IMG/VR virus record: IMGVR_UViG_3300034101_005257 | Coordinates: 1-44,768 of that record | Length of the DNA stretch: 44,768 nt | Strand: one strand, 5' to 3' | DNA from: a virus | Part shown: piece after piece, positions 2,995 to 42,833 of the stretch | Position numbering within the stretch: the stretch's first letter is position 1 | Layout: the number at the start of each line of letters is the position of its first letter | Program-made: the position numbers and the translations under genes | Notes under the pieces: generated by a model | Database searches by the model: none | Seen by the model: only the letters and a program-made list of their open reading frames with translations | What the model was told of the DNA's origin: nothing

Positions 2995-2996
2995 AT

Positions 2997-5387: not shown

Positions 5388-5388
5388 A

Positions 5389-6021
5389 TTAATTATCCAA
5401 TTGTCTATAATATTCATTAATTAAGTTACTATCTGATTGAAACGGTATACCATTTCCGAATACTTTTATAGGTATTTCCTTTTCCCAAAAAAAAGAAATT
5501 TCCTTACCTTTATTTTTCATCAAGATTTCATCACTTCTAACATCATTTTCAATCCAAGAAAATTTTGGAAAAATAACAACTTCATTGTTAATAATTTCTA
5601 AAAATTGTTTATGATGGGCATTACCACGATATTTATTTTGGTATAAAAACGAAAATTCATCATATTTTGATGGTGACGCAATAAACCCCTCAAGTGATAT
5701 TTTAGTCAACAAGTCTGTTAATTCCAAAGGATTAAATACATCTTCAATTGTGTGTGAGCAAATAGAGAAATCAAATTTTCCATAGGTTTCGACATATGAT
5801 AATATCTCACCCCATGTGGTTTTATCTTCCAAATTCAAATTAAAAAAAGTAACATCATCCTTATTGACAACAATCGAATCGGCAACAAATTTACACTCAG
5901 GATAAGACCAAAACATGTAAGATGCACCAACATCAACTGTTTTCAAATTGTTGTCGGATATATATTTTTTTATGTCTTCCCTTTTACCACCGGTGGTGTT
6001 ATATGTCCAACTTTTTATCAT
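5389..6021 (-). CDS. Methyltransferase-like protein (type 11 fold)
   Basis: The protein has 210 aa. TVDVGAS at 28-34 fits a degenerate SAM motif I. FSICSHTIEDV at 85-95 fits the motif that in Methyltransf_11 proteins reads cSHxLEHv. A FIASPSK strand follows. The glycine-rich loop is incomplete compared with active enzymes, so it may be inactive or act on an unusual substrate. It sits between two other cassette genes with 1-2 nt gaps. Confidence 0.6.
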   Translation of the reverse strand: MIKSWTYNTTGGKREDIKKYISDNNLKTVDVGASYMFWSYPECKFVADSIVVNKDDVTFFNLNLEDKTTWGEILSYVETYGKFDFSICSHTIEDVFNPLELTDLLTKISLEGFIASPSKYDEFSFLYQNKYRGNAHHKQFLEIINNEVVIFPKFSWIENDVRSDEILMKNKGKEISFFWEKEIPIKVFGNGIPFQSDSNLINEYYRQLDN

Positions 6022-6023
6022 CT

Positions 6024-6584
6024 TTAATCAAAAAAAACAACACCAGTCCCTGATACATGACCCAAGTTGGTGATTTCCATTTTATCTTCATTTATTGTCT
6101 CCCAAAACTGAGACATTTCATTATTCAAACGTATGTCGTCTAATATCAATATTCCATTATAATTAATTTTTTTCAAATAGTTCAAAAAAATAAGTTCAAA
6201 ATCTCCTGTATGGAAAGTATCTAACAGAATTATTTTGGAATCTAATATGATTTCTTTGTATTTATCACTCATTACGTCATCGACTATAAACTCAACATTT
6301 TGCGGTTTTTCTTTCAATTGTAATTGATCTGTCAAATTAAATGAGTAAACTTTATTTGTTTTGTTTGCGGCCAAAGCCAATGCTGAACAACCTAATAAAG
6401 TACCGACATCAACAAATGATACACCATCAAAATAATTGGATAAAAAAGTTAGTAGTCGATAGTGTTCCTGAGATGATTTTTGTAAAAAATAATTTTGATA
6501 TTCTTCATTATTGATTAAAGAATAAGATTCCATTTTCAACTCATCCAAGTCTTCATTTTTTAAATTGAGAAATAAATCTTTCAT
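6024..6584 (-). CDS. Class I SAM-dependent methyltransferase-like protein
   Basis: The protein has 186 aa. Motif I is FVDVGTLLGCSAL at 57-69. VDDV at 101-104 and LLDTFHTGDFE at 120-130 follow, and GILILDDI at 144-151 is the fourth core strand. This arrangement fits Methyltransf_24-like proteins found in glycan gene clusters. Four nucleotides separate it from the GT60 gene and two from the next methyltransferase-like gene, so the three are cotranscribed. The substrate is unknown; sugar methylation is an inference from the neighbours. Confidence 0.7.
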   Translation of the reverse strand: MKDLFLNLKNEDLDELKMESYSLINNEEYQNYFLQKSSQEHYRLLTFLSNYFDGVSFVDVGTLLGCSALALAANKTNKVYSFNLTDQLQLKEKPQNVEFIVDDVMSDKYKEIILDSKIILLDTFHTGDFELIFLNYLKKINYNGILILDDIRLNNEMSQFWETINEDKMEITNLGHVSGTGVVFFD

Positions 6585-6588
6585 TTTT

Positions 6589-7833
6589 TTATAAATTTCC
6601 TGTCATTCTTTCACCCCACCCTTTAGATTCAGAGTGTGGCCAAACAACCCAATATGCAGGTTTTTCTTCAGCATTGAAAGTTCTCCAAACTTTACAATAC
6701 CCGTCAGGATCTCTAAAAAACCCTTGAATTTCGTGTTTATCCGCATCCTTACGGTATATTGTTTCATCCTTGTGATCATGGAATGCAACCACCCAAAAAT
6801 CATAATCTCTTTCGGGAACCTGATCATAGGCAACATCGATACAATGTTTGAATTGTTTTGTGAATGAGTTGATCCAGTCTTCCTCCGTTTCGTAATTATT
6901 TGGATTTGGTGGATATTCCTTATCCAAAGTGTATTTTTGAACCGCTCTTTTACTAAAGAGGAGACCTGAATATTTTTCATAATCTCTTAAAGTTCTGACG
7001 GGACCAAATCCAAATTGACCTAAGTCAACCATTTCTTCACCATCCATACCAAAAAGTTGTCTGTTTCTCTTATGAGAATGATTGTTCTTTTCAACCCACT
7101 TCTTATCGTCATCCCACTGTTTGGTTCGTCCTTTTCTTGTGTATTCGTGATAAACAACTACCTTGTGAGGGTGAAACAAATCATATCCGTGAGTGTATGC
7201 TCTTGCTGCGATGCTGATTTCCTCTCCGTGGAAATAATATTCAGGGTCGTGTTGAACTTCTTTTGAAAATTTTCCGAGTGTGAAGCAAAAGTGTGCGGAA
7301 TAAAATCTAGCGGGAACTGGTTTGGTTAGTTCAGTCCAACCAGGTATTGTTTCAGGTAGGAAGAAAACTGCACCCTCGGGGATAAATCTATCGAATGCCA
7401 TTCTCCAAGGATCTCTTGCTCTTCCTGCGGGGTCATTATCAGGATCAAATGAACTTACATATCCTGTTAGAAGTGGTTTCTCATGTCCATCTTCTTGTAG
7501 TTGGTCAATCATATCGATCAAAGTGGTGTCCCAACCCTTTTCGAATCTCATATGTGAATCGATTTGGAGGGTATAGGTTTCATTCCTATAAAGTTGTTGG
7601 ATAAGGTGTCTCGCCCAACAAGCTCCGTTTGATTCTTCGTAAGGTATATCTAAAATTCTGAATCTATCATCATTTCTAAATTCTTCTAATTTATCAAAAC
7701 CGTCCTCTTCTTTATATTGTCTTGCAATACCAAACCTTAATTTTTCGGGTCGATCGGCGTTTGAAATCATATCCCTAACTGTGTTTTCTAATTCGGGATC
7801 TCTGTATGATGCTATTTGGACAAATATAGTCAC
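6589..7833 (-). CDS. GT60-type GlcNAc transferase (Skp1 GnT-like) with C-terminal extension
   Basis: The protein has 414 aa and starts at GTG 7833. The N-terminal 240 residues closely follow the GlcNAc family (GT60): FVQIASYRDPEL at 4-15, SNGACWAR at 68-75, the metal-site motif LQIDSHMRF at 89-97, FHGEEISIAARAYTHGYDLF at 201-220 and a late His in YHEYTR at 228-233. The founding eukaryotic enzyme adds GlcNAc to hydroxyproline of Skp1; bacterial and phage members have unknown acceptors. Residues 310-414 form an extra aromatic-rich domain I do not recognise. It lies 3' of the protease and Pro/Thr fibre genes, in the same orientation. Confidence 0.87.
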   Translation of the reverse strand: MTIFVQIASYRDPELENTVRDMISNADRPEKLRFGIARQYKEEDGFDKLEEFRNDDRFRILDIPYEESNGACWARHLIQQLYRNETYTLQIDSHMRFEKGWDTTLIDMIDQLQEDGHEKPLLTGYVSSFDPDNDPAGRARDPWRMAFDRFIPEGAVFFLPETIPGWTELTKPVPARFYSAHFCFTLGKFSKEVQHDPEYYFHGEEISIAARAYTHGYDLFHPHKVVVYHEYTRKGRTKQWDDDKKWVEKNNHSHKRNRQLFGMDGEEMVDLGQFGFGPVRTLRDYEKYSGLLFSKRAVQKYTLDKEYPPNPNNYETEEDWINSFTKQFKHCIDVAYDQVPERDYDFWVVAFHDHKDETIYRKDADKHEIQGFFRDPDGYCKVWRTFNAEEKPAYWVVWPHSESKGWGERMTGNL

Positions 7834-9118: not shown

Positions 9119-11515
9119 TTACAGCGTATTAAATCTAACAAAGACAGTTCTTATACCCGAAGCGGTAGGTGTTTCTGAAATAGAAGGCGTAATTGATGGT
9201 GTTATAGTAGTTGTCGGTGATACGGTTGGAGTTTGAGTCTGAGTTGGAGTTTGAGTTGGTGTTGGAGTAGTTGTCACCGTTGGTGTCGTCGTAACTGTTG
9301 GTGTCTGTGTTGGAGTTTGAGTGGGGGTTACACTTGGTGTTTGTGTTGGAGTAAGTCCAGGTGTAACTGTTTGACTTGGAGTTAAAGATATTGTTGGTGT
9401 GATACTCGGAGTAATAGATGGTGTAGGGGTTTGTGTAGGTGTTTCTGTGGGTGTTACTGTTGCCGTGGGTGTAGGTGTTTCTGTGGGTGTGGGAGTAATT
9501 GTTTGAGTAGGTGTTATTGTTTGGGTAATTGAAGGTGTAAGTGTTGGTGTTACTGTTGGCGTATTTGTTGGAGTTTTGGTGACCGTTGGTGTAACTGTAG
9601 GTGTTGGGGTTGGTGATGGTGTTGGTAAAGGTTCGAAATTTTCACAATCCAAACAGAAATAATCAAAGAGATCATAAGTATTTCTTAAAATTCTGTTATT
9701 GTGTTGAACTTGTCCACCATTCAATGGTTCGGCATAGAATCTAAATTCTGAAATTGCACCATCAAAAGTTCCCCCAAAGTACTTTTCTAATAAAATACCG
9801 GTCTCTAATTGTGAAAGTGATGTACCTGACAAAACTGTATCGGGAAATAACTCAGGATCCTGTTGGTAAGTGGTTCCTGTACAACTATTAAATGTTAGAT
9901 TCTCCCTTAATCCTTGAGTACCACCACCCCATGACATTGAATAACTTACACCGATTTGTTTTTCTTTTTCGGTATTCAAAGGTCTTGGAATAATTTCCTC
10001 AAAGTTTTCTACGATCATAAATAAATAACCATTGAGATATACTTTCAAAGATCCAAGTCTTTTATCTTTTGAGTCAATGAAATCTCTATTCATAACGACT
10101 CTTTGGACGGGGTATTCTTTTTCTTGGTCGTGAGTATAAGGTGGTTGAATTAAACTTAAAGTGTCACCTCTTTCAGTTGCAGGGTAAATTAAGGAACTCA
10201 TTTCCCCAATTCCACCTTCATAGAATAAGTCACATCCCTCGTAGAAAGTATATCGTTTGAATACGACATCAACCTGTAACCATTTTTCAGTATTCAAAAA
10301 GTCAGTTTGGTTGGTACTTCCCGAACAGAAATCGTAAATTCCAATATTGGAATAAATGTTGTTGATTGTATATCCTGTTAAATAATATTCGTGTGTTTCA
10401 CAATCCGCAGTTGTTTGACATGCTCCCGTGATGGTAATTGTCCTTATATTAATTTTTGGGTTTTTTGGGTCACCCGATAATCGTATTGCAAATGAATTTG
10501 ATAATACATCTATCGTTGGATCTTTGGGTGGTATGGCAACCACTTTGTGTTCACATGCATTTCCACAAACGGTACAATCCGTTCCTTGATAGGTGTCACC
10601 TGATATTGGGTAAACATTGTAACAATCTGAAGTGAATGCCGTCAAAGTACAAGAACAAGTTTTCAAACAACTTAATTCTTCGGTTACTCGTGTATAAGCT
10701 GTGTAACTTTCAGGATGACCTGTGGCATAATGATAGAATTTATCTTCCGCTCTTGTCCCCATATAGAAGAAAATCCCTGCGTTATTTGGATAGATTTCGT
10801 TTAGAGTGGTCTCACCTGCGCCGGGTTCAAATTCATCATATATTCTTGGCTTTATTACCGTCTCCATAGACCATCCGAGTTCATATCTTTCGGGTAATAT
10901 TTGCCAATCATATTCGTATAGTTTGTAAAAACCTTGATAAAAACCACCATATAATTCTTGGTAGTATCCTATACCCGCCTCTTGTTTTGAAACTATATTA
11001 TATAGGGTGTTTGCCGTTATACCTGAAAATCTTGAGTTGGGTGATCTTACATTTGATGTGACCGAAATTAATTTAAGATGTCTATCGTATGTTAATCTGT
11101 CAAATTTGTTAATTGAATCTAATAATCCTCTTGTGTAATAGAGTGTTTCACCACTCATTCTGTCTGTGAGTCCATTGTCAATTCCTGTTAATCCAACATC
11201 ACAAATTCCACTCAACGAGTAACAAGATGCATCAACTAAATCAGGAAAAGGATAGAACTTATCCGATACTAAATTATTATCAGTTTCAAAATCATCGTAA
11301 AATAATTCGAGTTGAGGTGAACAATCCGGATCCCACAATCTTATATTAACAGGTAATACATTTCCGTCATCAAAACCGATCAAATTTGTTGAAAATACGG
11401 TCTCCTGATCATATTCAATTTCATCTTTAGATAGATAAAAATCATAATACTCAGAAGTATCCAATCTCAATTTAATGGAGTTGTTGGAATGATTTCGGAT
11501 ATTTTGTATTCCCAC
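9119..11515 (-). CDS. Fibre-like virion protein with LamG-like region and Pro/Thr-rich tail
   Basis: The protein has 798 aa and starts at GTG 11515. Residues 1-625 are a beta-rich, Gly/Tyr/Cys-containing region; the part around 520-625 (GAISEFRFYAEPLNGG) resembles the end of a concanavalin/LamG domain, as seen in phage adhesins. Residues 630-785 are a low-complexity run of Thr-Pro with Val, Ser, Ile and Gln, much like a mucin stalk, and the chain closes with a short strand (RTVFVRFNTL). I infer a tail or head fibre. The tail has well over fifty Thr/Ser, an obvious O-glycosylation platform for the enzymes encoded just downstream. A TATTTAT motif lies 23 nt upstream of the GTG. Confidence 0.75.
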   Translation of the reverse strand: MGIQNIRNHSNNSIKLRLDTSEYYDFYLSKDEIEYDQETVFSTNLIGFDDGNVLPVNIRLWDPDCSPQLELFYDDFETDNNLVSDKFYPFPDLVDASCYSLSGICDVGLTGIDNGLTDRMSGETLYYTRGLLDSINKFDRLTYDRHLKLISVTSNVRSPNSRFSGITANTLYNIVSKQEAGIGYYQELYGGFYQGFYKLYEYDWQILPERYELGWSMETVIKPRIYDEFEPGAGETTLNEIYPNNAGIFFYMGTRAEDKFYHYATGHPESYTAYTRVTEELSCLKTCSCTLTAFTSDCYNVYPISGDTYQGTDCTVCGNACEHKVVAIPPKDPTIDVLSNSFAIRLSGDPKNPKINIRTITITGACQTTADCETHEYYLTGYTINNIYSNIGIYDFCSGSTNQTDFLNTEKWLQVDVVFKRYTFYEGCDLFYEGGIGEMSSLIYPATERGDTLSLIQPPYTHDQEKEYPVQRVVMNRDFIDSKDKRLGSLKVYLNGYLFMIVENFEEIIPRPLNTEKEKQIGVSYSMSWGGGTQGLRENLTFNSCTGTTYQQDPELFPDTVLSGTSLSQLETGILLEKYFGGTFDGAISEFRFYAEPLNGGQVQHNNRILRNTYDLFDYFCLDCENFEPLPTPSPTPTPTVTPTVTKTPTNTPTVTPTLTPSITQTITPTQTITPTPTETPTPTATVTPTETPTQTPTPSITPSITPTISLTPSQTVTPGLTPTQTPSVTPTQTPTQTPTVTTTPTVTTTPTPTQTPTQTQTPTVSPTTTITPSITPSISETPTASGIRTVFVRFNTL
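9157..9630. repeat. Low-complexity DNA coding for the Thr/Pro tail
   Basis: Imperfect short repeats of GTTGGTGT/GTTGGAGT type fill this stretch on the plus strand. They read as Thr-Pro-Thr units on the minus strand. Units vary, unlike the exact 60-bp array at the left edge. Confidence 0.85.
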
Positions 11516-24872: not shown

Positions 24873-26372
24873 ATGTCTGACCATCGTTCATATTTTAGTA
24901 GAAACAATACTATAGTTTTTAATTCTGAAGTAAACACGGGTAGAAACCCTGTTACAGAATTATTTTTCGGATCAAACTTTCCCGCCATCGGAACAAAATC
25001 TTTCTCGAGATTTATTTTTGATCTTGATTTAGAACCTCTCCAACAGAAAATTACCGAAGGATATCTTAATTTATCCTGTAACACAAACATCACCCACGAA
25101 TTAAGAATGACCAATTCGTCGGCCTTTGAGGATCTACTAAACGAAACAAATAGTGATGGTAGAAGAAGAGCTACTTCATTTGATTTGATTCTTTTTAGAA
25201 TACCAAAATCGGGTGGAGCGACAGGAACAACACAAAGTTGGGATGAAGGTGTTGGATATGATTTCAACGAAACCTCTGTAGACAATGTTAACAGTCAATA
25301 TTATAGAAACATTATTGAAACTGATAAATCCTATTCATTGAGACCATCCAATTACTTTGACAGACAACTTATTTACGATTGGAGTACAAACGGAATTTAT
25401 ATAAATGATAATACCGGAACAAGTGGTCAGGTTAATTATTCAGCACTCACCATTGTAGACACCCAACATTTTGAATTTGGTGACGAAGATATTTCATTCG
25501 ATATGACAAGTGAAATAAACTCCATTTTAAACGGATCTTTGACAAATAATGTAGGGTGGGGTGTCGCTTATGTTCCACAAGTAGAAAACTTAACAGGTTT
25601 GAGTGAATCATATTTTGTGGGATTCTTTACAAGACATACTCAAACATTTTATGAACCCTACCTTTATTCCACTTGGAATGATGTGATTGATGATTCAAGA
25701 ACTAATTTTACCGAAGGTACATCCAATGAACTTTATCTCTACATTTCAAGAAATGGATCCCCAATAAATTTGGATTCAAGTCCTACGGTGGACATCTTAG
25801 ATCCAAATGGCGATGAAATTGCGGGATTGACAGGTATATCAACCTGTAGAGTTAGTAAAGGGATATATAAGGTTTCAGTACCTGCCATTACGGGGGGAAG
25901 TTTGAATTGTTTATATACCGATAGATGGAAAAATCTTGTATTAAATGGTGTTGTATTATCCAATATAGAAAATGAATTTGAACTCAAATCTTATAGTGAT
26001 AGTTTACAATATGACACCTCATTACCCGACACTCAAGAGTACGGATTTACATTCTATGGAATTCAATACGCCGAGAAAATATTGAACACAGATCAAAGAA
26101 AAATATCGGTTATACCTAAAAAGGCTTATACGAAATCACATATTGTCGACGACATTGATGTTCAATACAGGATATATGTAAAGGAGGGTCAAACCGAGGT
26201 TCAGGTTACAGATTGGACTGAACTTAATAGAACACCTCAGGAATATTTCTTTATTTTAGATCTTAAAGACAAGATCCCAAATGAATATTTTATTGATTTA
26301 CAACTAAATCAAAATAATAATATTGTCACATACAAAAACGAAATAAATTTCCAAGTCGTAAATAAAAAATGA
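24873..26372 (+). CDS. Tail/fibre-like structural protein
   Basis: The protein has 499 aa, rich in Tyr, Asn, Asp and Ser with alternating short strands, as in phage tail fibre or baseplate wedge proteins. The first 110 residues resemble a beta-sandwich found in DNRLRE-like secreted proteins (SRFIFDLDLEPLQQKI). A second beta domain starts near 285 (NELYLYISRNGSPINLD) and a third near 380-499. No enzymatic motif is seen. The gene lies 22 nt after the spike gene, with its own promoter-like motif, and overlaps the next small gene by 4 nt. Confidence 0.6.
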   Translation: MSDHRSYFSRNNTIVFNSEVNTGRNPVTELFFGSNFPAIGTKSFSRFIFDLDLEPLQQKITEGYLNLSCNTNITHELRMTNSSAFEDLLNETNSDGRRRATSFDLILFRIPKSGGATGTTQSWDEGVGYDFNETSVDNVNSQYYRNIIETDKSYSLRPSNYFDRQLIYDWSTNGIYINDNTGTSGQVNYSALTIVDTQHFEFGDEDISFDMTSEINSILNGSLTNNVGWGVAYVPQVENLTGLSESYFVGFFTRHTQTFYEPYLYSTWNDVIDDSRTNFTEGTSNELYLYISRNGSPINLDSSPTVDILDPNGDEIAGLTGISTCRVSKGIYKVSVPAITGGSLNCLYTDRWKNLVLNGVVLSNIENEFELKSYSDSLQYDTSLPDTQEYGFTFYGIQYAEKILNTDQRKISVIPKKAYTKSHIVDDIDVQYRIYVKEGQTEVQVTDWTELNRTPQEYFFILDLKDKIPNEYFIDLQLNQNNNIVTYKNEINFQVVNKK

Positions 26373-26623
26373 GTAAAATTATTTTAAATAATGAAGATAT
26401 GAAAGAAATCTTGAGAAGGTTTCTTATTGAGGCTTACATTACCGAGAAAAAGAAAAAATCAAATAAGTTGTGTTCTCGTGGTATATCAGCCGCTAAAGCA
26501 AAATATGATGTTTATCCAAGTGCATATGCTAATGGATATGCGGTTCAAGTGTGTAAAGGAAGGATGCCTGGTCTTGATGGTAAGAAAAGATGTTCAGGTT
26601 CCTACTGTAAAGAAAAAAAATAA
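26369..26623 (+). CDS. Small Cys-containing phage protein
   Basis: The protein has 84 aa. After a 30-residue helix it has the segment CSRGISAAKAKYDVYPSAYA and a Cys-rich C-terminus (VCKGRMPG, RCSGSYC). The AAK-YPSAYAN-VCKG pattern recurs in marine T4-like phages and is basic, so nucleic-acid or capsid binding is possible. It is the last phage gene before the host-like operon; the stop is at 26621-26623. Confidence 0.65.
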   Translation: MSKIILNNEDMKEILRRFLIEAYITEKKKKSNKLCSRGISAAKAKYDVYPSAYANGYAVQVCKGRMPGLDGKKRCSGSYCKEKK

Positions 26624-26640
26624 CTCCTTATTATTATTTA

Positions 26641-26657
26641 CTTAACTTTCTCTTAAC
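26641..26657 (+). promoter_or_regulatory. Pho-box-like direct repeat
   Basis: CTTAAC occurs at 26641-26646 and again at 26652-26657, 11 bp apart (one helical turn). This agrees with the PyTTAAPyPy units with 3-bp gaps bound by cyanobacterial PhoB-type regulators, and with the 11-bp period of Pho boxes. A third copy at 26663 is poor. It lies about 10 bp upstream of a -35 element. Confidence 0.5.
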
Positions 26658-26666
26658 AACCTTCTT

Positions 26667-26695
26667 TTGACCTATTGTAATTATAGACGTATAAT
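26667..26695 (+). promoter_or_regulatory. Sigma70-type promoter of the T9SS/TonB receptor operon
   Basis: TTGACC (26667-26672) and TATAAT (26690-26695) are separated by exactly 17 bp. A start site near 26702 would leave a short A-rich leader to the ATG at 26717. It looks like a host-type promoter, unlike the TATTTAT motif used elsewhere in the window. Confidence 0.65.
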
Positions 26696-26716
26696 TTACA
26701 ATAAATTTAAAAAAAG

Positions 26717-28309
26717 ATGATTATGAGAAAACAAATTTTGCTGACCCTGTCACTATTTATGGGTCTTTTGACGACTAATGCTCAAGAATGGACTTGGGAT
26801 TATGTAAACTACAGAGGTGCCTTCCCTGTGACTGACAACACAACAGCCACCGATTGGACTTATGGATGGACAAATTGGGATCCACAAAACACAGAATACC
26901 CAACCCCGTCTATGATCCTTTCTTCTGATATTACGGTTAATACAACCATCGGAGGTGTTGTTGAACTCCAAAACAAAATATATGTCAAAAATGGTGCGGT
27001 TTTGACAATTCAACCAGGAACAATTATCAGAGGAGACGCATCAACACAAGCAACTTTGATTGTCACGAAAGGTTCCAAAATTATTGCACAAGGGACACAA
27101 GACCAACCCATCGTTTTTACATCCAATCAACCTGTGGGTGAGAGAGCTGAGGGTGATTGGGGAGGATTAGTTATTTTGGGTAATGCAATCAATAATCAAC
27201 CTGGTGGTATTGCAAATATCGAAGGTATTCCAGCCTCTTCGGATACTGAATACGGTGGAACTGATGATAATGACAACTCAGGTATATTAGAATATGTTAG
27301 AGTTGAATTTTGTGGTATTGCTCTTGAACCAAATAAAGAAATCAACGGCATTACCTTTGGTTCTGTCGGTTCAGGGACTTATGTAAATAATGTTCAAGTA
27401 TCTTATTCAGGTGATGATTCATTTGAATGGTTCGGTGGAACTGTAAATTGTAAGCACCTCATCGCTTATAGTGGTATTGATGATGATTTTGACACAGACT
27501 TTGGTTACAGAGGAAAAGTTCAATTTGTTTTGTCAATTAGAAACAAATATATGTATGATGCAGTTGGTGACTCTAACTCATTTGAATCAGACAACGATGG
27601 TCAAGGATCTCCTAATGAACCTCTAACCTCACCTGTTTTTTCTAATGTAACTTTGGTTGGACCATTTGGTGATGATGTTACAGAAACTCTTCCAAATGGT
27701 GAGACCTTTGAAAAGGCATTTCGTTTGAGAAGAAACACCTCAACTTCTATCTTCAATTCTTTGGTTACAGGTTGGGAAAAAGGCGTGTCAATTGAAGGTA
27801 TTTCGTCACAAGTGAATGTAACAATCGGAGATTTGGTGTTTGCAAATAATATTTTGGCTGATCTTCCGAATGGTTCAAATTGTGTTTCAGGAACGGAGGA
27901 TTTTTACAACTCATTCTTCGGTGTAAACAACAACGACTCAACAACAACAGTTGAACAAATTGATTGGGTTAATTTGTTTGTTGATTTGGGTTTGACTCCT
28001 GATGCTAGACTTAGCGAAAGTAATTCACCAGCTTTGGGAGCGGATTTCACACATCCACTTTTGTCAAATCCTGTTGTGATCGGTGTTGACAACAAAACCA
28101 CATCCAACTTCACAATTTACCCCAACCCAACCTCTGACTTTTTGAATGTTGTTTCACCAAATAGAACTCCCATCTTCGTGATGAATCAGGTGGGTCAAAG
28201 AGTTTATGAGGATTATGCACCAACCACAATCAATCTTTCAAACTTTGAAGATGGAATTTATTTCATTCAAACATCCAATGATGTTCAGAAGTTTGTAATA
28301 CAAAAGTAA
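26717..28309 (+). CDS. Secreted beta-helix-like protein with T9SS type A sorting domain
   Basis: The protein has 530 aa. It begins with a Sec signal peptide (MRKQILLTLSLFMGLLTTNA, cut before Gln-Glu-Trp); an alternative start is the second Met at 26723. The middle (75-390) contains repeated strand-turn units such as VKNGAVLTIQPGTIIRGDA and SGDDSFEWFGG, with FESDNDG further on, typical of Bacteroidota secreted proteins that neighbour TonB receptors. The last 70 residues are a T9SS C-terminal domain (FTIYPNPTSDFLNV ... GIYFIQTSN), which sends it through the type IX secretion system to the cell surface. The TonB receptor starts 1 nt after its stop. A ligand-capture partner role is inferred. Confidence 0.9.
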   Translation: MIMRKQILLTLSLFMGLLTTNAQEWTWDYVNYRGAFPVTDNTTATDWTYGWTNWDPQNTEYPTPSMILSSDITVNTTIGGVVELQNKIYVKNGAVLTIQPGTIIRGDASTQATLIVTKGSKIIAQGTQDQPIVFTSNQPVGERAEGDWGGLVILGNAINNQPGGIANIEGIPASSDTEYGGTDDNDNSGILEYVRVEFCGIALEPNKEINGITFGSVGSGTYVNNVQVSYSGDDSFEWFGGTVNCKHLIAYSGIDDDFDTDFGYRGKVQFVLSIRNKYMYDAVGDSNSFESDNDGQGSPNEPLTSPVFSNVTLVGPFGDDVTETLPNGETFEKAFRLRRNTSTSIFNSLVTGWEKGVSIEGISSQVNVTIGDLVFANNILADLPNGSNCVSGTEDFYNSFFGVNNNDSTTTVEQIDWVNLFVDLGLTPDARLSESNSPALGADFTHPLLSNPVVIGVDNKTTSNFTIYPNPTSDFLNVVSPNRTPIFVMNQVGQRVYEDYAPTTINLSNFEDGIYFIQTSNDVQKFVIQK

Positions 28310-28310
28310 A

Positions 28311-31094
28311 ATGAAATACTTCAACTTATTTATATTTTTATTCTTACCTTTTTGTTTATTTTCACAATATAATTTATCTGGCACGGTCAACGACTCTCAA
28401 TCACGGGAGTCGTTGATTGGTGCAACGGTATATATTGAGGAATTAGGTAAAGGGACGATGAGTGACCTTGATGGAAACTTCTCAATTCAAAATATTCCTT
28501 CAGGGGTTTATAATGTTAGATTCAGTTTTATCGGTTATGACACTTCAGTTGAAAGTATAAATATGGTTGGAAAAAGTGGGGTTGTTGATGTATCTCTTAA
28601 CCCCGTCTTTTTGGAAATAGGTGAGGCCACAGTTGTTGCTCAGGCAAATCAACAATCTGCAACACAGATGATTGCTTTACAAAAAAGATCAGCATCAGTT
28701 ATTGATGGTGTTTCTTCAGAGGTTTTTAGTAAAACACCCGACGCTAAAGCATCCGATGTATTCAAAAGAGTTGGGGGTGTAACAATACAAGAAAATAAAT
28801 TTGTTATTATCAGGGGTTTAAACGATAGATATAACTTCGCTTATATCAATGGAACTCCTCTCCCTTCAACCGAATCAGATAGAAGAGCATTTTCATTTGA
28901 TTTGTTTCCTTCCAATATGATTGACAACTTGTATGTTAATAAATCGTCCTCACCTGATCTCTCTGGTGAATTCTCAGGTGGTTTAATTAACATCAATACA
29001 ACAGATCCGAAGGAAGTGACATATCAGAATTTTCAGATCGGAACATCATTCAACACGATGACCACCTTCCAAGACTTTGGAACTTACAGAGGGAGTCCGA
29101 TGGATCCAATTGGGTTGGGATCGGAATTTAGATGTTTACCCGACAATATTCCAAACACTTCTGAGTTTGTAAATTTATCCAAACAAGAAAGAGCTGAACT
29201 TGCATCGTTGATTCAAACGGATTGGTCAACATATTCAAGAAAAGCACCTGTATCTTCTACTTTTCAATATTCAGTAGGAAAAAATTATTCATTTGGAAGT
29301 AGAACCCTTCTTTTAAGCGGAGCTTATAATTATTCAAGTCAGTTTAATACCACCACTACAACAAGAAGAGATTTTGAAGAACAAAGTTTGGGTGTTGTTC
29401 AAAAGATGGAACTTAATGACTCAGTTTTTGTTCACAATATCGCAAACAGTGGTCTTCTTAATTTTTCTTTGTTATTAAATCCTAATAATACCATAAAATT
29501 AAAGAACTTTTACACCATAAATTCTGAAGATAGAATTAACGTAAGACAAGGTGTAAGAGAGATGGATAATGACCCAAGACAATGGGAAAGATCCACAAAT
29601 TTTTGGTATACACAAAATAACTTTTTATCACAACAGTTAATTGGAACTCACAACATCATAAATTCAAAGTTGAATTGGAATTTGAGTTACAACAATGTTA
29701 GAAGAGATATTCCAAACTTAAGAAGAATAGTTTACCGAAAATATTCTTTGAATGAAGATGATCCAAATACACAATATACTGCTGTAATACAATCAAATGG
29801 AACTATCCCCACCGCAGCGGGAAATATGTTTTGGTCTTATTCTGATGAAGATCTATATTCAGGAAAATTAGATTGGTCAAGAAATATAACACTCGGTTCA
29901 TTTGAAAATGAAGTGAAGATAGGTGGGATGTATCAACACAGAGATAGAAATTTTATCTCTCGTAACTTAGGTTATTCACAATACAAACCACAAAACGGTT
30001 ATTTTGATAGTTCATTACTTCTTTTGGATCCAAGTCAGATTTTTTCACAAGAAAATATGGGACTATTGGACAATGGGATGGGTGGTTTTAAATTAGATGA
30101 ATCAACCAATGTGGATGATAGTTATAATGCAAACTCCACATTAGGGGCGGGATATACATCATTTGATACAAAATATAAATCATTCAGATTTATCTATGGT
30201 GTAAGAATTGAAAATTACAATCAAAACTTTTTCTACACAGAATTTGGTTCAAATAAACCAATTCATATTAATAGTAATATAACTGACTTCTTACCTTCAT
30301 TCAATTTTGTTTATACAATAAATGAAAAGACCCAACTTAGGTCGTCCGTATATTCAAGTGTTTCAAGACCTGAATTTAGAGAACTCGCACCCTTCACCTT
30401 CTACAACTTTATTCAAGATAATATCATCACAGGAAATCCATATTTAGAAAGAACAAAAATAAATAACCAAGAAGTAAGGTTTGAGTTTTATCCCGATTTA
30501 AATGAGATTTTTTCTATTTCGATATTCAACAAGAACTTAACCAATCCAATTGAATTGATTAATAGAACTGGTGTTTCAGGGGCACCAGAGATTTATTATT
30601 CGAATGTTGAAAGTGCGTTTATCAGAGGTATTGAATTTGAAGGTAAAATAAATCTGATTGACAATCTAAATCTTACATCCAATGTTTCATTGGTTCAATC
30701 TGAAGTTGATTTGAATGGATTTGAGGGATCTGAAAATGGAAGACCATTACAGGGTCAATCACCTTATGTTTATAACTTTGGTTTGTTATATAACACACAA
30801 AATAATTGGAATGTTTCCGCAAGTTACAATATGGTCGGTCCGAGAATCTTCATCGTCGGAAATATTCAAGAACCATCGGTTTGGGAAAATGGGCGAAATT
30901 TGATTGATCTTCAGGTTTCCAAAAAATTCGGAAATATTGAAATGAAATTTAATGTTAGAGATTTACTCTCACAAGATTTGGTGATGTTCCAAGACCTTAA
31001 CGGTAATGAAAAATTGGATGAAGGGGACAACAGATGGCAAGAAACAAGGATGGGATCAAATGTCAATTTTAGTTTGAAATATAATTTCAATTGA
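28311..31094 (+). CDS. TonB-dependent outer-membrane receptor with carboxypeptidase-regulatory-like domain
   Basis: The protein has 927 aa and appears full length. It has a signal peptide (MKYFNLFIFLFLPFCLFS), a carboxypeptidase-regulatory-like domain at 22-100 (SGTVNDSQSRESLIGATVYI, GTMSDLDGNFSI), a plug from about 125 to 250 (SDVFKRVGGVTIQENKFVII, SGEFSGGLININTTDP) and a long barrel ending in NVNFSLKYNFN. Such receptors use TonB/ExbBD energy to import bound nutrients. No frameshift or early stop is seen. Paired with the T9SS protein and a Pho-box-like site, a phosphate-linked uptake role is inferred. Alternatives: other scarce nutrients, or a decoy that blocks superinfecting phages. Confidence 0.92.
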   Translation: MKYFNLFIFLFLPFCLFSQYNLSGTVNDSQSRESLIGATVYIEELGKGTMSDLDGNFSIQNIPSGVYNVRFSFIGYDTSVESINMVGKSGVVDVSLNPVFLEIGEATVVAQANQQSATQMIALQKRSASVIDGVSSEVFSKTPDAKASDVFKRVGGVTIQENKFVIIRGLNDRYNFAYINGTPLPSTESDRRAFSFDLFPSNMIDNLYVNKSSSPDLSGEFSGGLININTTDPKEVTYQNFQIGTSFNTMTTFQDFGTYRGSPMDPIGLGSEFRCLPDNIPNTSEFVNLSKQERAELASLIQTDWSTYSRKAPVSSTFQYSVGKNYSFGSRTLLLSGAYNYSSQFNTTTTTRRDFEEQSLGVVQKMELNDSVFVHNIANSGLLNFSLLLNPNNTIKLKNFYTINSEDRINVRQGVREMDNDPRQWERSTNFWYTQNNFLSQQLIGTHNIINSKLNWNLSYNNVRRDIPNLRRIVYRKYSLNEDDPNTQYTAVIQSNGTIPTAAGNMFWSYSDEDLYSGKLDWSRNITLGSFENEVKIGGMYQHRDRNFISRNLGYSQYKPQNGYFDSSLLLLDPSQIFSQENMGLLDNGMGGFKLDESTNVDDSYNANSTLGAGYTSFDTKYKSFRFIYGVRIENYNQNFFYTEFGSNKPIHINSNITDFLPSFNFVYTINEKTQLRSSVYSSVSRPEFRELAPFTFYNFIQDNIITGNPYLERTKINNQEVRFEFYPDLNEIFSISIFNKNLTNPIELINRTGVSGAPEIYYSNVESAFIRGIEFEGKINLIDNLNLTSNVSLVQSEVDLNGFEGSENGRPLQGQSPYVYNFGLLYNTQNNWNVSASYNMVGPRIFIVGNIQEPSVWENGRNLIDLQVSKKFGNIEMKFNVRDLLSQDLVMFQDLNGNEKLDEGDNRWQETRMGSNVNFSLKYNFN
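28387..28416 (+). other. Strong inverted repeat early in the receptor CDS
   Basis: TCAACGACTC (28387-28396) is followed by a 10-nt loop and the exact complement GAGTCGTTGA (28407-28416). The 10-bp, half-GC stem stands out in an AT-rich genome and sits about 76 nt into the receptor coding region. Confidence 0.6.
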
Positions 31095-31141: not shown

Positions 31142-31318
31142 ATGAATTATCGGACCTATGAACTAATTAAGGAAGGAAAAGTTATTAACCAAACAGAGGC
31201 TCAATCTGCGGATTCAGCGTTAGATTATTTTAATTTATTCCACGAAGATTTAATGTCTTCACCACACTACCAAATCAAATTTCGTAAATCTTCACAATCA
31301 AATCATTTGAACCTTTGA
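31142..31318 (+). CDS. Small phage protein
   Basis: The protein has 58 aa when started at 31142 (MNYRTYELIKEGKV), which follows the promoter-like motif by a normal leader. An in-frame ATG at 31115 lies before that motif and is less likely. The sequence has a strand-helix pattern (YRTYELIKEGKVIN, SADSALDYFNLF) and no recognised family. Its 3' end overlaps the convergent cupin-like gene by 44 nt. Confidence 0.55.
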   Translation: MNYRTYELIKEGKVINQTEAQSADSALDYFNLFHEDLMSSPHYQIKFRKSSQSNHLNL

Positions 31319-32749: not shown

Positions 32750-34552
32750 TTATCTCAATTCGTTGAGGTCGAATGTTCTAACACCATCAACAGTGATTCT
32801 ACCGTAGAATCTGTTGTTCACCATCTTCTTAGCGTATCTGGTCATGATACCCTTGATTGGGGTGAAGTTGAATGGGTTATACATTGTTGGTGTCAATTGG
32901 AGAGGTACATATGGTGCGTAAACGTAACCTGTGTCAAGTAATGACGTTCCCTTATGACCAATCAAGATTTGGTTTGGTGGGAAGTATGGGTCACGGTAAA
33001 CCTGGTATCTACCAGATAATGTACCAACTCTTTCAATACCCATGTTGTATTGATCCTGTTCAGGAGCTGCGTTTGAAACGTGGAAGTATTCCAAGTCATC
33101 AAAAATAGCTGAAACTTCGGATGAAACAACGATCCAGTTCGCACCACCTCTCAATGTTGATTTGTGGATTTGTGCAGAAAGTTGGTTGATCGCAGTGATC
33201 AATGTTTGGTTCCAATCCTTCTGTGTGTACTGGGTTAATGGGTTAGATGATGTACCTCTCTTCCAACCGTTGTAGTCCCATCTTAACTGCCATGCCGCAC
33301 CTTTTCTCAAATCTCTCAAGATTTCTCTGTCGATTTCTGCCGCGACCTGTTCTGATAACAACGCTGTCAATTCAGCCTCAGCGTCGATGTTGTGGAACGC
33401 AGCAACGTCTTGAGCAAGTTCAGGAGACCATTGAGCTCTCAACTTTCTTTCTGAAACAGAAACAGTCACAGACTCAAGATCAAATGAAACTTCACCAATC
33501 TTATCTTCGAATTCGAGTTCTTCATAAATTCTGTAAGTACAGTAGAATTGGGATCCCGCAATTGAAGTACCTGCAAAGGTAGTAGTTAAACCTGAGTAAC
33601 CATCCAATGAATTTGCACCTATGGAACAAGGAACCTGAAGGTCAACTTCTAAGTAAATTTTACCATTCGCATCACAAATATTGTCAAAAGTTCCACCATT
33701 ACCTGTATTGCTTTGTCCGAAAGCTACAGTTTCTTGTGATCCATATTGAACAATTCCTTTTCCGTATTTTTGAGTCACAACTCTAAAGAGTAAGTTACCA
33801 CTACCAGCACCTGAGAATGCACCTCCAGCTATAGTTGTTGCTTTTACAGTCAAATCCGAAAGGAAAGTCTCACTATCAACCATATTACCGTCAGGTCCGA
33901 GTAATTTACCAAAACCACCGTTACTAAATCCTGATAATGTAAGGAGAACTTTTCTGTATTCACCAGCACCATAACCTGATGCAATCAAATCACCACTACT
34001 CCAAACTTGTGTAACAACGTCAGTTGAAGTAATTGAAGAATATCTTCCTTTTGAGTAGTCGAACAAACCAGGAGGGTCCAAAGTTGCTTCATTACCCTCA
34101 TAGAATCTATCATAAAGGTTTTTACCTGTTGAATATCCTTGGTTTGGATTATTATCCCCGTTTGCAACCGCTTCAGGTGAACCAACCGGTGGATAATGTG
34201 CATTTCCTGTATCATAAGCTTGAATCTTAGGTACGAAGTAGAAAAGTTTACCGATAGGTAAGTTCATCGCCTGAACAGAAACGATATCATTAGCCAAAAG
34301 TTTTGAGAAAACTCTTCTGATGATAGGGAATACAACAGTCTCAAATGAACCTGAAGAATCTGTTGATGCCGCTTCGTTGATTAAGTGTGACGCTTGGTTC
34401 TCATAAAGTTGAGCCATGTTTTCTTTTAAGTGTCCGCCCAATCCTTCCAAGAAACCAAGTTTGTCCCATTTGTTTATAGTGTCTTCTTTGATAACTTTAA
34501 GGTGCTTAAGACCGATGTTACCAACTAAACCACTTTCTAATAATGCTCCCAT
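32750..34552 (-). CDS. 23: Major capsid protein (gp23-like)
   Basis: The protein has 600 aa, against 521 in T4 gp23. The N-terminal region (HLKENMAQLYENQA at 41-54, then FETVVFPIIRRVFSKLLAND and PIGKLFYFVPKI) matches gp23 proteins. A maturation cleavage by the gp21-like protease is likely after Glu60 in SHLINE/AAS, matching the I/L-x-E rule. A large Gly/Ser-rich insertion at about 110-330 would form the exposed domain. The C-terminal half has QWSPELAQDVAAFHNIDAE and GTSLLDTGYVYAPY. It is the shell subunit. It follows the prohead core gene by 21 nt and is followed by a strong terminator. Confidence 0.95.
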   Translation of the reverse strand: MGALLESGLVGNIGLKHLKVIKEDTINKWDKLGFLEGLGGHLKENMAQLYENQASHLINEAASTDSSGSFETVVFPIIRRVFSKLLANDIVSVQAMNLPIGKLFYFVPKIQAYDTGNAHYPPVGSPEAVANGDNNPNQGYSTGKNLYDRFYEGNEATLDPPGLFDYSKGRYSSITSTDVVTQVWSSGDLIASGYGAGEYRKVLLTLSGFSNGGFGKLLGPDGNMVDSETFLSDLTVKATTIAGGAFSGAGSGNLLFRVVTQKYGKGIVQYGSQETVAFGQSNTGNGGTFDNICDANGKIYLEVDLQVPCSIGANSLDGYSGLTTTFAGTSIAGSQFYCTYRIYEELEFEDKIGEVSFDLESVTVSVSERKLRAQWSPELAQDVAAFHNIDAEAELTALLSEQVAAEIDREILRDLRKGAAWQLRWDYNGWKRGTSSNPLTQYTQKDWNQTLITAINQLSAQIHKSTLRGGANWIVVSSEVSAIFDDLEYFHVSNAAPEQDQYNMGIERVGTLSGRYQVYRDPYFPPNQILIGHKGTSLLDTGYVYAPYVPLQLTPTMYNPFNFTPIKGIMTRYAKKMVNNRFYGRITVDGVRTFDLNELR

Positions 34553-39154: not shown

Positions 39155-41023
39155 TTATGATCCTAGTAACTCGTTTAGTTTTTTATCAATCTCCTGTAAA
39201 GATTTTTTAGCTTTGTTGATATTGAGTTCTACAACACCGTTTAACATATTATCTTCAAGGATTAAATTTTCATCTTTTTCTTTGGATTCAGGAGTTACTT
39301 CAGCCGGTGGAGGTATAGTCTCTGTTTCAGTACCACCTGTTTCAGCCGCAGGTTCAGGAACTGTGGTTGTACCCCCTACCTCACCAAAACCACCTAAATC
39401 AGGACTTGTTGTTTCTCCACCACCTGGTGTTGTTGCCTCACCTGCACCTGCTTCACCTCCCTCCTTTGGTTTTCCATTACCGTACAACTTGTCAATATTG
39501 TCAAATATACCTGTCTTGGTAATTACATTCGGAGTTTCTTCAAGTTCCTTAGCTACAGCTTTTTCAATTCTTTGTTGTTGTATATCCAACTTAATTTCTT
39601 CATCACTGAACCCAAGAATATGTTTCTTAGCCCAAGAAGCGGATACCGCCTGAATACCATTTCCAGGATCAGTAACTGCGTCTCTGTAGAGTTGGATTTT
39701 GGATTGAAGTTGTTCAATCTTCAACATATCCTGTTGTGTTGATGGATTGGTTAGACCCAAAGTGAAGTTATTAAGTTCGTCCTCAAATCCCAAGATATAT
39801 AGATGAATAATCGCGATTTTATTTAATTCTTGAATCATCGCTTGTTGAATTCTATTGATGGTCCTTGAAAATCTAATATCCAAAAGAGAAAGATTCTTAC
39901 CATCACCAACCACTTCTTCAAATCCAAGGAAAGCTTTCGGTATTCTTAAAGCGGTCAATAATTTCTTTTGAATATATTCAATATCCGCAATTTCACTCAG
40001 ATTCTGAGCGCCAGGTAAAGTATCAATTGGATTTGGTGCGTTCGGATCACGAACAGGAATAAAATAATCCTGATCCACGGCCATCTGATTATATCTCATA
40101 TCCACATTACCATTCTTTGGATCCACAATTTGGTCTCTCTTGAATTTGTTGGCAACCCTTTGGACATAGGCTTCAACATCTTTATCATCCATATTTCCAA
40201 CAAAAACTTTGAAAACTCTTCTTTCAGGTGCTCTTGATGTTCTATAGATTAACATCGCATCTTCCGACAAAAGAAGTTGTTTCCAAACTCTTCTTGCTTT
40301 TTCTAACATAGAAGTTCCATAGGGTAATTTTGAGTCGTCACCCAAAAGTCTAAAGTGAGCAACCTCCCACGTATTGAATTCTATATTTTTATTTTTCCAA
40401 GTAAAAGTTAAGTGGGTATTTTCAACACCGGTATTCATTGCAACGGTATTAACAACCATACCTCTCTCGAATCTTTCGATTTCAATATTTGGTAATTGTT
40501 GTGCTCCGACAACACCTTGTTCAGGATCTATCTTTAAATAGAGAAAATTATCACCATACTTACAAGTATTTCTTGTCCACATAGGTAAGTTGGTATTAAT
40601 ATCCAACTTGTTATTGAACAAGTCGGCCAAAATACTTTTGATTCTATTGGATTCTGAATATATTTGAAGTATAAATCCATTTTCATTTGGGGTTGTTGAT
40701 TCTTCAGCATAAATGTCCAAAGCTGCGGATATTTCGGGTGTAAACTCCATAGATTCATAATCATAATATGAAGCCAACCTTGTTGGTTCATAATATACGG
40801 CTTGTGTGTAAAGATTGTTTTCAACCTTTGACCATTGGTTTGCCAAATACAAACTCTGTTGAGCTTGAAGTTTTTCCTTTTCGTATTCCCCTTTAGATTT
40901 GGTTCTTAAAATTTCTTTTTTATCGAACCTATATTGAGGAACTTGTTGATCCAATGTGGAATCTGGTCCAAAGACCCTTGAAAGTCGTTGCCAAATTGTA
41001 TATTGTTGATTAGTTTGTGCCAT
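39155..41023 (-). CDS. 20: Portal protein (gp20-like)
   Basis: The protein has 622 aa. Hallmarks of gp20 are visible: a conserved N-terminal half (SMEFTPEISAALDIYAEEST near 91-110, CKYGDNFLYLKI near 154-165) and the stem/wing region (KFKRDQIVDPKNG, LLTALRIPKAFLGFEE). The C-terminal 100 residues are a Gly/Thr/Pro/Glu-rich linker (GGEAGAGEATTPGGGETT) before a final helix, longer than in T4. Twelve copies form the DNA-entry ring and bind terminase. It is encoded 40 nt after the terminase gene. Confidence 0.95.
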   Translation of the reverse strand: MAQTNQQYTIWQRLSRVFGPDSTLDQQVPQYRFDKKEILRTKSKGEYEKEKLQAQQSLYLANQWSKVENNLYTQAVYYEPTRLASYYDYESMEFTPEISAALDIYAEESTTPNENGFILQIYSESNRIKSILADLFNNKLDINTNLPMWTRNTCKYGDNFLYLKIDPEQGVVGAQQLPNIEIERFERGMVVNTVAMNTGVENTHLTFTWKNKNIEFNTWEVAHFRLLGDDSKLPYGTSMLEKARRVWKQLLLSEDAMLIYRTSRAPERRVFKVFVGNMDDKDVEAYVQRVANKFKRDQIVDPKNGNVDMRYNQMAVDQDYFIPVRDPNAPNPIDTLPGAQNLSEIADIEYIQKKLLTALRIPKAFLGFEEVVGDGKNLSLLDIRFSRTINRIQQAMIQELNKIAIIHLYILGFEDELNNFTLGLTNPSTQQDMLKIEQLQSKIQLYRDAVTDPGNGIQAVSASWAKKHILGFSDEEIKLDIQQQRIEKAVAKELEETPNVITKTGIFDNIDKLYGNGKPKEGGEAGAGEATTPGGGETTSPDLGGFGEVGGTTTVPEPAAETGGTETETIPPPAEVTPESKEKDENLILEDNMLNGVVELNINKAKKSLQEIDKKLNELLGS

Positions 41024-41063: not shown

Positions 41064-42833
41064 TTATCTTCTCATTCCTCCGAAGAGCCATAAATATTTC
41101 TCTACGTCTTTCTGATTATAACTTCGATTGGAATCGTTATTTGTTTGACCATAATACGATGGAACACTCGGATTCATAAAGTCAGTTTTATATTTTACAC
41201 TTTCATTTACCGTCCAAGAATCAATCATTGCTTTTGCTTGTTCGGTCACCTTTGTAAGTTTGGAAAAACTACTTTCCCCAACATATAAAGCCATAGCAAC
41301 AGACATAATCAAGTCGTCATGTTGTCCTTTGATATGGTCAGGTCTTCCGTTTATATAAACAAAAGTTAGTAATTCATTATATAATCTTGATGATCTGATT
41401 TTGAAACCGTGTCTAATATATTCTTCAAAAGTTGCAATAATCTGAACCCTTTTGTTATTGAAATTAATTCCCGGTATTTTCTCTTGCGCTTTTGGATCAT
41501 ATTTCCATATGTCAGTCGATACTTGACCATCGATATAAAGGTTTTTATACCCCAGCTCTTGCATCTTCCTTGCCGTTGATACACCCATACCACCCGTGAT
41601 GTCAATAACCACAAATGCGTTGTATCTTTGTGCCCATTTTAAGGCAATTTCAGCGGCAATATCAGGTGGAACTTTGTCCAAAAATTCAACAACCTGTTCT
41701 CTTGTATCAAAATCAACTATATTAAAGGTTGTAAAGTCCTCTGAATCACCTCTTGACACATCCACACCCATAATATATTTGTGATCCAATATTGGATCCT
41801 CCCAAACCCATAACGCCCCTCCCATCATCTTGTCTTTGGGTTCTTTAATATCATTTTTCTTGATTTTTTCCATAGTTCCAGAGTCAATGACATTGTCACC
41901 CGAACCAAGAAAGTTACACTCCAATTCTTGAGACACCTTTCTTCTATCGTATTTCAACTTCTTAACCATAGTTTCAAACCAAGAAGAACAAGGTTTATAA
42001 CCTTCATTGATTTTTTGAATAACAAATTCAAGATCCAAATCCCAACCCGCACCATCCAACCTAATTACGTGTTCCTCTTCAGAATATTCTTCTTTATTTA
42101 ACAAATAATGAACTATATCTTTGGTTTTTACTAAATAAAGGTCTTTGGTATATCTTGGATCTCTATACCAATACATTTCAGATATTTTAAAATCATTCAT
42201 ACCCCGTAAAGCTTGATCGTAAATTGAATAATAAATTTGATCAAATCCGTTGGGAGTTGAAATAACTATAACTTTACCACCCGTTGAGAGTGAGGCCATA
42301 CAAGCCGCCCAGAAATCATCATCCGCTTCAATATATGCTGCTTCGTCAAATACAAGGATAGTTGGGGTATAACCTCTCAATGCGTCTTTTGATGTTGCAA
42401 CCGCTTTTACTTCACAACCATTTGTCAATCTGAAGTGACGTTGGGAGTTTTTTTCCGATGAAAAACTAACGCCAAACCAATCGGGCCATTGCTCTTGGAA
42501 AGACCTGATTTTATCGGCCATACCAACGGCAGTGTCAAGTTTGTTGGCAATGATCAATATCTTTTCAGGTTTTCCCTTCGGAGCTGTGATCAACTTTTTG
42601 GAAATCCAAGCTGCGGTGACAGTGGAAACTCCCGCCTGTCTATATTTTAACGCAATATTTTCTTCAAACTTTTCAAAATCCTCAATCAATTTCACTTGGT
42701 CAGGAAACAACTTCAGGGGTACGAACCCCTGAACTGTTTGATCATAAGTTTTCAAATATGTTTTTAACGCATATTCAGGACTTTTGACACATTTGGCATA
42801 TTCTAATAATACCTGTTCTCTTGTTAACCCCAT
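41064..42833 (-). CDS. 17: Terminase large subunit (gp17-like)
   Basis: The protein has 589 aa. The ATPase half has Walker A in KYRQAGVSTVTA (RQAGVST 65-71) and Walker B in ILVFDEAAY (161-167), followed by VISTPNG (motif III). The RNase H-like nuclease half has Asp358 in MGVDVSRGDSEDF, Asp411 in VVIDITGGMG and Asp506-Asp507 in GQHDDLIMSVAMAL. It packages DNA into proheads through the portal and cuts concatemers. The length matches T4 gp17 (610 aa). Three nt separate it from the 429-aa gene upstream. Confidence 0.97.
   Translation of the reverse strand: MGLTREQVLLEYAKCVKSPEYALKTYLKTYDQTVQGFVPLKLFPDQVKLIEDFEKFEENIALKYRQAGVSTVTAAWISKKLITAPKGKPEKILIIANKLDTAVGMADKIRSFQEQWPDWFGVSFSSEKNSQRHFRLTNGCEVKAVATSKDALRGYTPTILVFDEAAYIEADDDFWAACMASLSTGGKVIVISTPNGFDQIYYSIYDQALRGMNDFKISEMYWYRDPRYTKDLYLVKTKDIVHYLLNKEEYSEEEHVIRLDGAGWDLDLEFVIQKINEGYKPCSSWFETMVKKLKYDRRKVSQELECNFLGSGDNVIDSGTMEKIKKNDIKEPKDKMMGGALWVWEDPILDHKYIMGVDVSRGDSEDFTTFNIVDFDTREQVVEFLDKVPPDIAAEIALKWAQRYNAFVVIDITGGMGVSTARKMQELGYKNLYIDGQVSTDIWKYDPKAQEKIPGINFNNKRVQIIATFEEYIRHGFKIRSSRLYNELLTFVYINGRPDHIKGQHDDLIMSVAMALYVGESSFSKLTKVTEQAKAMIDSWTVNESVKYKTDFMNPSVPSYYGQTNNDSNRSYNQKDVEKYLWLFGGMRR

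Follow-up and report, generated by a model that had tools for sequence, protein, structure and literature searches.

Two adjacent genes in a virus genome, encoding a predicted secreted surface protein (ORF A) and a TonB-dependent receptor (ORF B), are likely to constitute a PhoB-responsive outer-membrane module for phosphorus acquisition that is carried as phage cargo. The genome was analyzed as a single 44,768-bp virus record (IMGVR_UViG_3300034101_005257), and the whole of this stretch is referred to here as the window. Our reading rests on the intactness and conservation of the two genes, their insertion at a phage site, the purifying selection acting on them, the phoBR-like and pst-linked neighborhoods of their cellular homologs, and a shared promoter motif. 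It is further supported by the published induction of the corresponding Flavobacterium johnsoniae pair upon Pi depletion, and by the metallophosphoesterase and glycosyltransferase genes that adjoin A in other A-bearing phages. Uptake itself, the ligand, PhoB binding, contact between A and B, and any benefit to the phage are inferred.

ORF A (26717..28309, plus strand; 530 aa) and ORF B (28311..31094, plus strand; 927 aa) are both intact, ORF B being full length, and they are separated by 1 nt, with phage genes on both sides of the pair. On the ORF A side lie a phage gene at 24873-26372 and, at the insertion boundary, a gene of 84 aa (26369..26623, plus strand; phrog_27331), both of which are kept in related phages. 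On the ORF B side, the boundary is marked by a small phage gene of 58 aa (31142..31318, plus strand), and beyond it lies a T4-like head module comprising the Gp23 major capsid protein (32750-34552), the portal (39155-41023), and the large terminase (41064-42833). The first-pass annotation, made from the sequence alone, had described a secreted T9SS protein and a complete receptor lying 1 nt apart amid phage genes, and this description held for the ORFs, the Pfam domains, and the flanks; the block it delimited starts at 26641 and so takes in the promoter region as well as the genes.

Comparison with related genomes showed that A/B is a clean insertion at a phage site. Twelve other IMG/VR contigs (L002-L012 and L027; the count includes those carrying only the part of A/B that fits on the contig) have A/B colinear with the same phage flanks at 79-99.9% DNA identity. 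Contigs with the block include ones of 76, 88, 110, and 119 kb, and the Gp23 capsid gene was present in all five of the A/B-bearing records searched for it. The site is empty in 13 related phages, in which the homolog of the 31142 gene directly follows that of the 26369 gene at a distance of 31-54 bp, compared with 4,522 bp in the window. Among 114 related loci holding both flanks, A/B was found in 2, both of the window's own lineage. Neither of the outcomes that the first-pass annotation had said would refute its reading, a junction with host DNA or related phages retaining only fragments, was encountered: no junction with host DNA was seen, and there were no fragmented copies within the lineage. 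The tail-side gene and the capsid gene enclose a cargo slot that is variable and spans about 1-9 kb. Other cargo occupies the same slot in related phages (L264:11500-20691, L253, and L231), including several predicted secreted proteins without known function.

The dN/dS values of the two genes are 0.06-0.14 overall (0.075-0.10 for A and 0.06-0.14 for B), showing that both are under purifying selection and implying that both are in use. A strain variant (L003/L010) differs from the window in diverged mosaic patches, with 67-81% DNA identity in the patches against about 95% around them, located in B (29675-30275; residues ~480-640), in A (27675-27875; residues ~281-370), and in the capsid gene (33475-34275). 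It is possible that the patches in A and B mark an interface or surface loops.

ORF A begins with a signal peptide (residues 1-23) and carries a C-terminal T9SS type A sorting domain (residues 467-527, corresponding to 28115-28297) that matches Por_Secre_tail (PF18962; E 2.4e-09, score above the gathering cut-off) and also TIGR04183. The AlphaFold2 model of the protein (pLDDT 78, pTM 0.75) shows short strands in series, and in Foldseek searches it matched T9SS C-terminal domains (8glk and 8glj) well but the beta-helices of pectate lyases and tailspikes only weakly; the viral library returned generic beta-helix proteins and T9SS tails and nothing else. The core is thus predicted by the model to be of the beta-helix type, on fold matches that are weak. 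It contains two conserved acidic motifs, GDDSFEW and DDDFDTDFGY, and one might speculate that these bind a metal or a ligand. Window-type A has a further motif, YRGAF..DWTxGWSNWDP, at its N-terminal end, whereas the phage homologs L066, L072, L077, and L080 have it ahead of the C-terminal tail, a shift resembling a domain permutation; these L066-type homologs are also without the TTAAC repeat described below.

ORF B consists of a signal peptide, a CarbopepD_reg_2 domain (28374-28574), a plug (28686-28973), and a barrel (29676-30959). It matches the Pfam families PF13715, PF07715, PF00593, and PF14905, with the CarbopepD_reg_2, Plug, and barrel domains scoring above their cut-offs, and a TonB-box-like sequence, EATVVAQ, was noted by eye at 28623-28643. 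The AlphaFold2 model of ORF B was of low confidence (pLDDT 49) and too poor for a receptor fold search. Sequence searches of solved structures returned only the T9SS tail for ORF A and only distant receptors for ORF B, and neither ORF had a match in PHROGs. SusCD and PusCD systems likewise combine a TonB-dependent receptor with a cell-surface partner, but the partner in the phage pair is not SusD-like. Identity with these systems was rejected, since A has no SusD Pfam domain and B scores 53 bits against a cut-off of 368 for TIGR04056 (SusC/RagA).

The two genes are cell derived, judging from the trees below, and were probably acquired horizontally; their closest cellular relatives are in freshwater Flavobacteriales. 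Scanning bacterial genomes with an alignment of A identified 80 loci, mostly in Bacteroidota MAGs, and the strongest matches came from Crocinitomicaceae/Cryomorphaceae-type Flavobacteriales. A homolog of B adjoins A in 64 of these 80 host loci, nearly always in the order B-A, the gap having a median of 157 bp; in window-type phages the order is A-B. In the closest host loci, identity is 43-52% for ORF B over nearly its full length and 55-67% for ORF A. Phage B proteins form one clade (SH-aLRT 100) nested among receptors of freshwater Flavobacteriales, and window-type phage A proteins form one clade (SH-aLRT 98) within the same Flavobacteriales; the internal order of the two phage clades is the same in both trees, and the A tree requires at least four label changes overall. 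In our reading of these trees, the pair was captured once and then spread between unrelated large phages, and A was also captured separately, giving at least four acquisitions of A by different large phages. Two records, L120 (CP034120.1, labeled Glaciecola amylolytica) and L136 (labeled Candidatus Planktophila), fall among Bacteroidota in the trees, with L120 placed alongside Fluviicola; mislabeling of the organism or contamination of the records is the probable explanation.

Beyond the window's lineage, a divergent A-B pair of its own is present in the 634-kb uncultured phage LR745206. No isolate phage with the module was found in INPHARED, where the matches were limited to this 634-kb phage and short unannotated fecal records. 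A receptor match (TonB_dep_Rec) was found in 9 of the 21 phage records searched, exactly one in each; in the remaining 12, which carry A, no receptor could be detected (these records may be fragments). The same phage neighborhood occurs without B in L035 and with B in L056. In both, A or A/B is directly followed by genes for a family 2 glycosyltransferase and a calcineurin-like, PlcP/LpxH-like metallophosphoesterase (L035:11710-13142; L056:12566-13998), and the phage phosphoesterase is 38% identical to one encoded beside the host pair and its regulators in L095. By analogy, these two genes recall the PlcP/glycosyltransferase lipid-remodeling pair of P-starved marine bacteria (PMC4796936), although the identity of the phage enzyme as PlcP is not established. 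In L056, the next gene is YceI-like (L056:14093-14644).

The neighbors of the cellular homologs bear on the nutrient involved. The pair has an OmpR-type response regulator no more than 600 bp away in 36 of the 80 host loci, often followed by a histidine kinase. The best NCBIfam match of each of the three regulators tested was PhoB, though short of the strict cut-offs; the kinase scored as PnpS/PhoR-like. Genes of the pst system (pstS, pstC/A, pstB, and phoU) are present in 4 of the 80 loci, and the PstS, PstA, PstB, and PhoU proteins of host loci exceeded the NCBIfam cut-offs. In an independent sample of 10 Flavobacteriaceae pst operons, a related receptor was located directly upstream in 3, 2 of which also have an A-like gene. 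Two Flavobacterium sp. loci (L133 and L140) carry, side by side, a porin-type gene, genes for PhoR-like and PhoB-like proteins, the receptor, A, and a glycosyltransferase-like gene.

This gene set is the same as that of the F. johnsoniae PhoBR operon (PUSIV), which encodes PhoR (0543), PhoB (0544), the TBDT Fjoh_0545, and the "hypothetical lipoprotein FII" Fjoh_0546 (PMC8115612). Upon Pi depletion, Fjoh_0545 is upregulated by log2 8.0 and Fjoh_0546 by log2 9.9, FI/FII-type proteins are reported to be beta-helix (pectin-lyase-like, IPR011050) surface proteins, and FI accounts for 18.7% of the exoproteome in Pi-starved Flavobacterium (PMC8115612). Like the phage pair, the operon has a receptor with CarboxypepD_reg, plug, and barrel domains adjacent to a surface protein, the one in the operon being reported to have a pectin-lyase fold. 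The phage copy differs in being without phoBR, in having the order A then B with a 1-nt gap, and in the T9SS tail of A, whereas Fjoh_0546 is a lipoprotein. A similar tandem, ElpS (CC0170) and the TonB-dependent receptor CC0171, has been linked to phosphate starvation in Caulobacter (PMC2996285). Extracellular phosphatase activity increases when ElpS is overexpressed; ElpS has no such activity of its own and is described as a helper rather than a phosphatase, and its deletion leaves phosphatase activity unchanged in Caulobacter (PMC2996285). Unlike A, ElpS is a lipoprotein released by the T2SS, not a T9SS substrate, and is not phage borne; CC0171 is reported to be constitutive (PMC2996285). The correspondence of the phage pair with Fjoh_0545/0546 and with ElpS/CC0171 rests on gene content and order and on the descriptions in these papers, without direct sequence comparison.

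A Pho-box-like direct repeat with an 11-bp period, TTAAC-N6-TTAAC, lies upstream of ORF A (26642..26657, plus strand) and is the sole exact occurrence of TTAACN6TTAAC in the window. Since 0.26 would be expected and at least one occurs in 25 of 100 shuffles, the count alone is weak evidence. However, a PWM built from host sites only places its top match in the window at 26642-26657, and in the 110-kb relative G071 the best match of the same PWM in the whole record is 52 nt before A. Just downstream of the repeat is a promoter-like sequence, TTGACC-17-TATAAT (26667..26695, plus strand), which is the best of the region with 11 of 12 consensus positions; it is suggestive only, as sites found by the promoter scan are no commoner than in shuffles. 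Spacing-11 TTAA repeats are present in 51 of 65 host receptor promoters (78%, against 11% of controls; Fisher p 8e-32) and in 14 of 28 dereplicated phage A promoters (50%, against 6% of controls; Fisher p 4e-10), both tests ignoring shared ancestry. The spacing of TTAA repeats peaks sharply at exactly 11 bp and, in hosts, also at 22. The half of phage A promoters without the repeat includes all those of the L066 type and that of the 634-kb phage. Of 14 pst operons, 10 also have a spacing-11 repeat no more than 300 bp from the porin or pstS gene, which supports naming it the Pho box of these bacteria. PhoX upstream regions, taken as an independent Pho-box set, yielded no clear motif, the PF05787 matches being mostly remote or partial. 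We propose TTAAC-N6-TTAAC as a Bacteroidota Pho-box consensus, defined here from sequence and not mapped experimentally. Control of the phage A promoter by host PhoB is likewise inferred from the shared motif, without binding data.

In the mechanism that we envisage, the phage infects a Pi-limited Bacteroidota cell in which active host PhoB would bind the TTAAC repeat upstream of A and switch on A-B. A would be exported via the host Sec system and T9SS and held at the cell surface, and B would insert in the outer membrane and be energized by host TonB-ExbBD. A may then bind or present a phosphorus compound, either Pi or an organophosphate acted on with a host phosphatase, that B would import to the periplasm; host enzymes and inner-membrane transporters would complete uptake, and the phosphate so gained would supply phage DNA. 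The first-pass annotation had proposed an auxiliary nutrient-uptake module like cyanophage pstS. That proposal held in kind, with uptake still inferred, and the nutrient is identifiable as phosphorus from the PhoB/PhoR-like and sometimes pst neighbors, the Pi induction in F. johnsoniae, and the Pho-box-like promoter site. Against the phosphorus reading stand the many phages that have A without B, the unidentified exact ligand, and the absence of the repeat from half of the phage A promoters.

Other explanations account for less of the evidence. That the block is an assembly chimera, or a passive host fragment without function, can be regarded as refuted: only the host-like nature of the genes speaks for it, and it is countered by the identical order in 12 contigs, the clean insertion point, the purifying selection, the phage-specific A-B order with its 1-nt gap (versus B-A and a median of 157 bp in hosts), and the phage-only clade formed by each gene. 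The first-pass annotation had also offered a decoy or receptor swap against superinfection, in which a phage-made receptor blocks or replaces the receptor used by competitors, or soaks up lysis debris. TonB-dependent receptors are common phage receptors, which favors this idea, and the diverged L003/L010 patches in B (~480-640) and A (~281-370) would fit an exchange of surface loops. However, the receptor travels with a Pho-regulon partner, the retention of A without any receptor in many phages is not explained by a decoy, nor are the Pho-box-like motif and the phosphorus-related neighbors in hosts and other phages, and B is conserved overall (dN/dS 0.06-0.14). We consider this alternative very unlikely; it is weakened but not excluded.

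A further possibility, which we regard as unlikely and which modifies the main reading without opposing it, is extracellular phosphorus mobilization, in which A, as has been proposed for ElpS, would activate a phosphatase or nuclease or anchor one, or else phosphate sensing, with B importing organophosphate and not Pi. The phosphatase-raising effect of ElpS, itself inactive (PMC2996285), supports it, as do the FI/FII-type beta-helix surface proteins (PMC8115612), with which the model of A is consistent. Against it, no phosphatase gene is fused or adjacent to the pair in the window, and the four host loci with pst genes favor Pi, at least partly.

Cyanophage pstS and phoA and other phage phosphorus-acquisition genes are known, and some phage genes are driven by host PhoBR (PMC10976474, PMC10987575). 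Like A/B, cyanophage pstS and phoA are cell-derived phosphorus-acquisition genes, but the products of the known phage phosphorus genes are phosphatases or have a periplasmic, inner-membrane, or cytoplasmic site of action, whereas A/B would act at the outer membrane and cell surface. Most known examples come from cyanophages and soil phages. The word "TonB" is absent from the text of PMC10987575, and no phage-encoded TonB-dependent receptors serving as auxiliary genes were found in the literature searched. Relative to that literature, the novelty lies in the outer-membrane step, in the use of a two-part receptor system, and in the host group. Bacteroidota phages appear to take over the outer-membrane step together with the host's own starvation switch, offering a testable case of nutrient limitation shaping Bacteroidota phage genomes and a proposed Pho-box consensus for the phylum, and bringing the FI/FII/ElpS surface proteins, which are poorly understood, into focus.

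A bolder version of the phosphorus reading, which we think may as readily prove wrong as right, is that PhoB-controlled outer-membrane phosphorus import is carried by Bacteroidota phages in which A is the limiting component, so that many carry A alone to boost the host receptor, and that in some of them it belongs to a more extensive phosphorus cassette that also encodes a glycosyltransferase and a phosphoesterase recycling phospholipids. If true, this would be the first outer-membrane nutrient-import receptor used as phage cargo. Elsewhere in the window, a run of minus-strand genes (686-7833) looks, by eye, glycosyltransferase- and methyltransferase-like, and near it is a gene (9119-11515) for a protein with long PTPTPT repeats.
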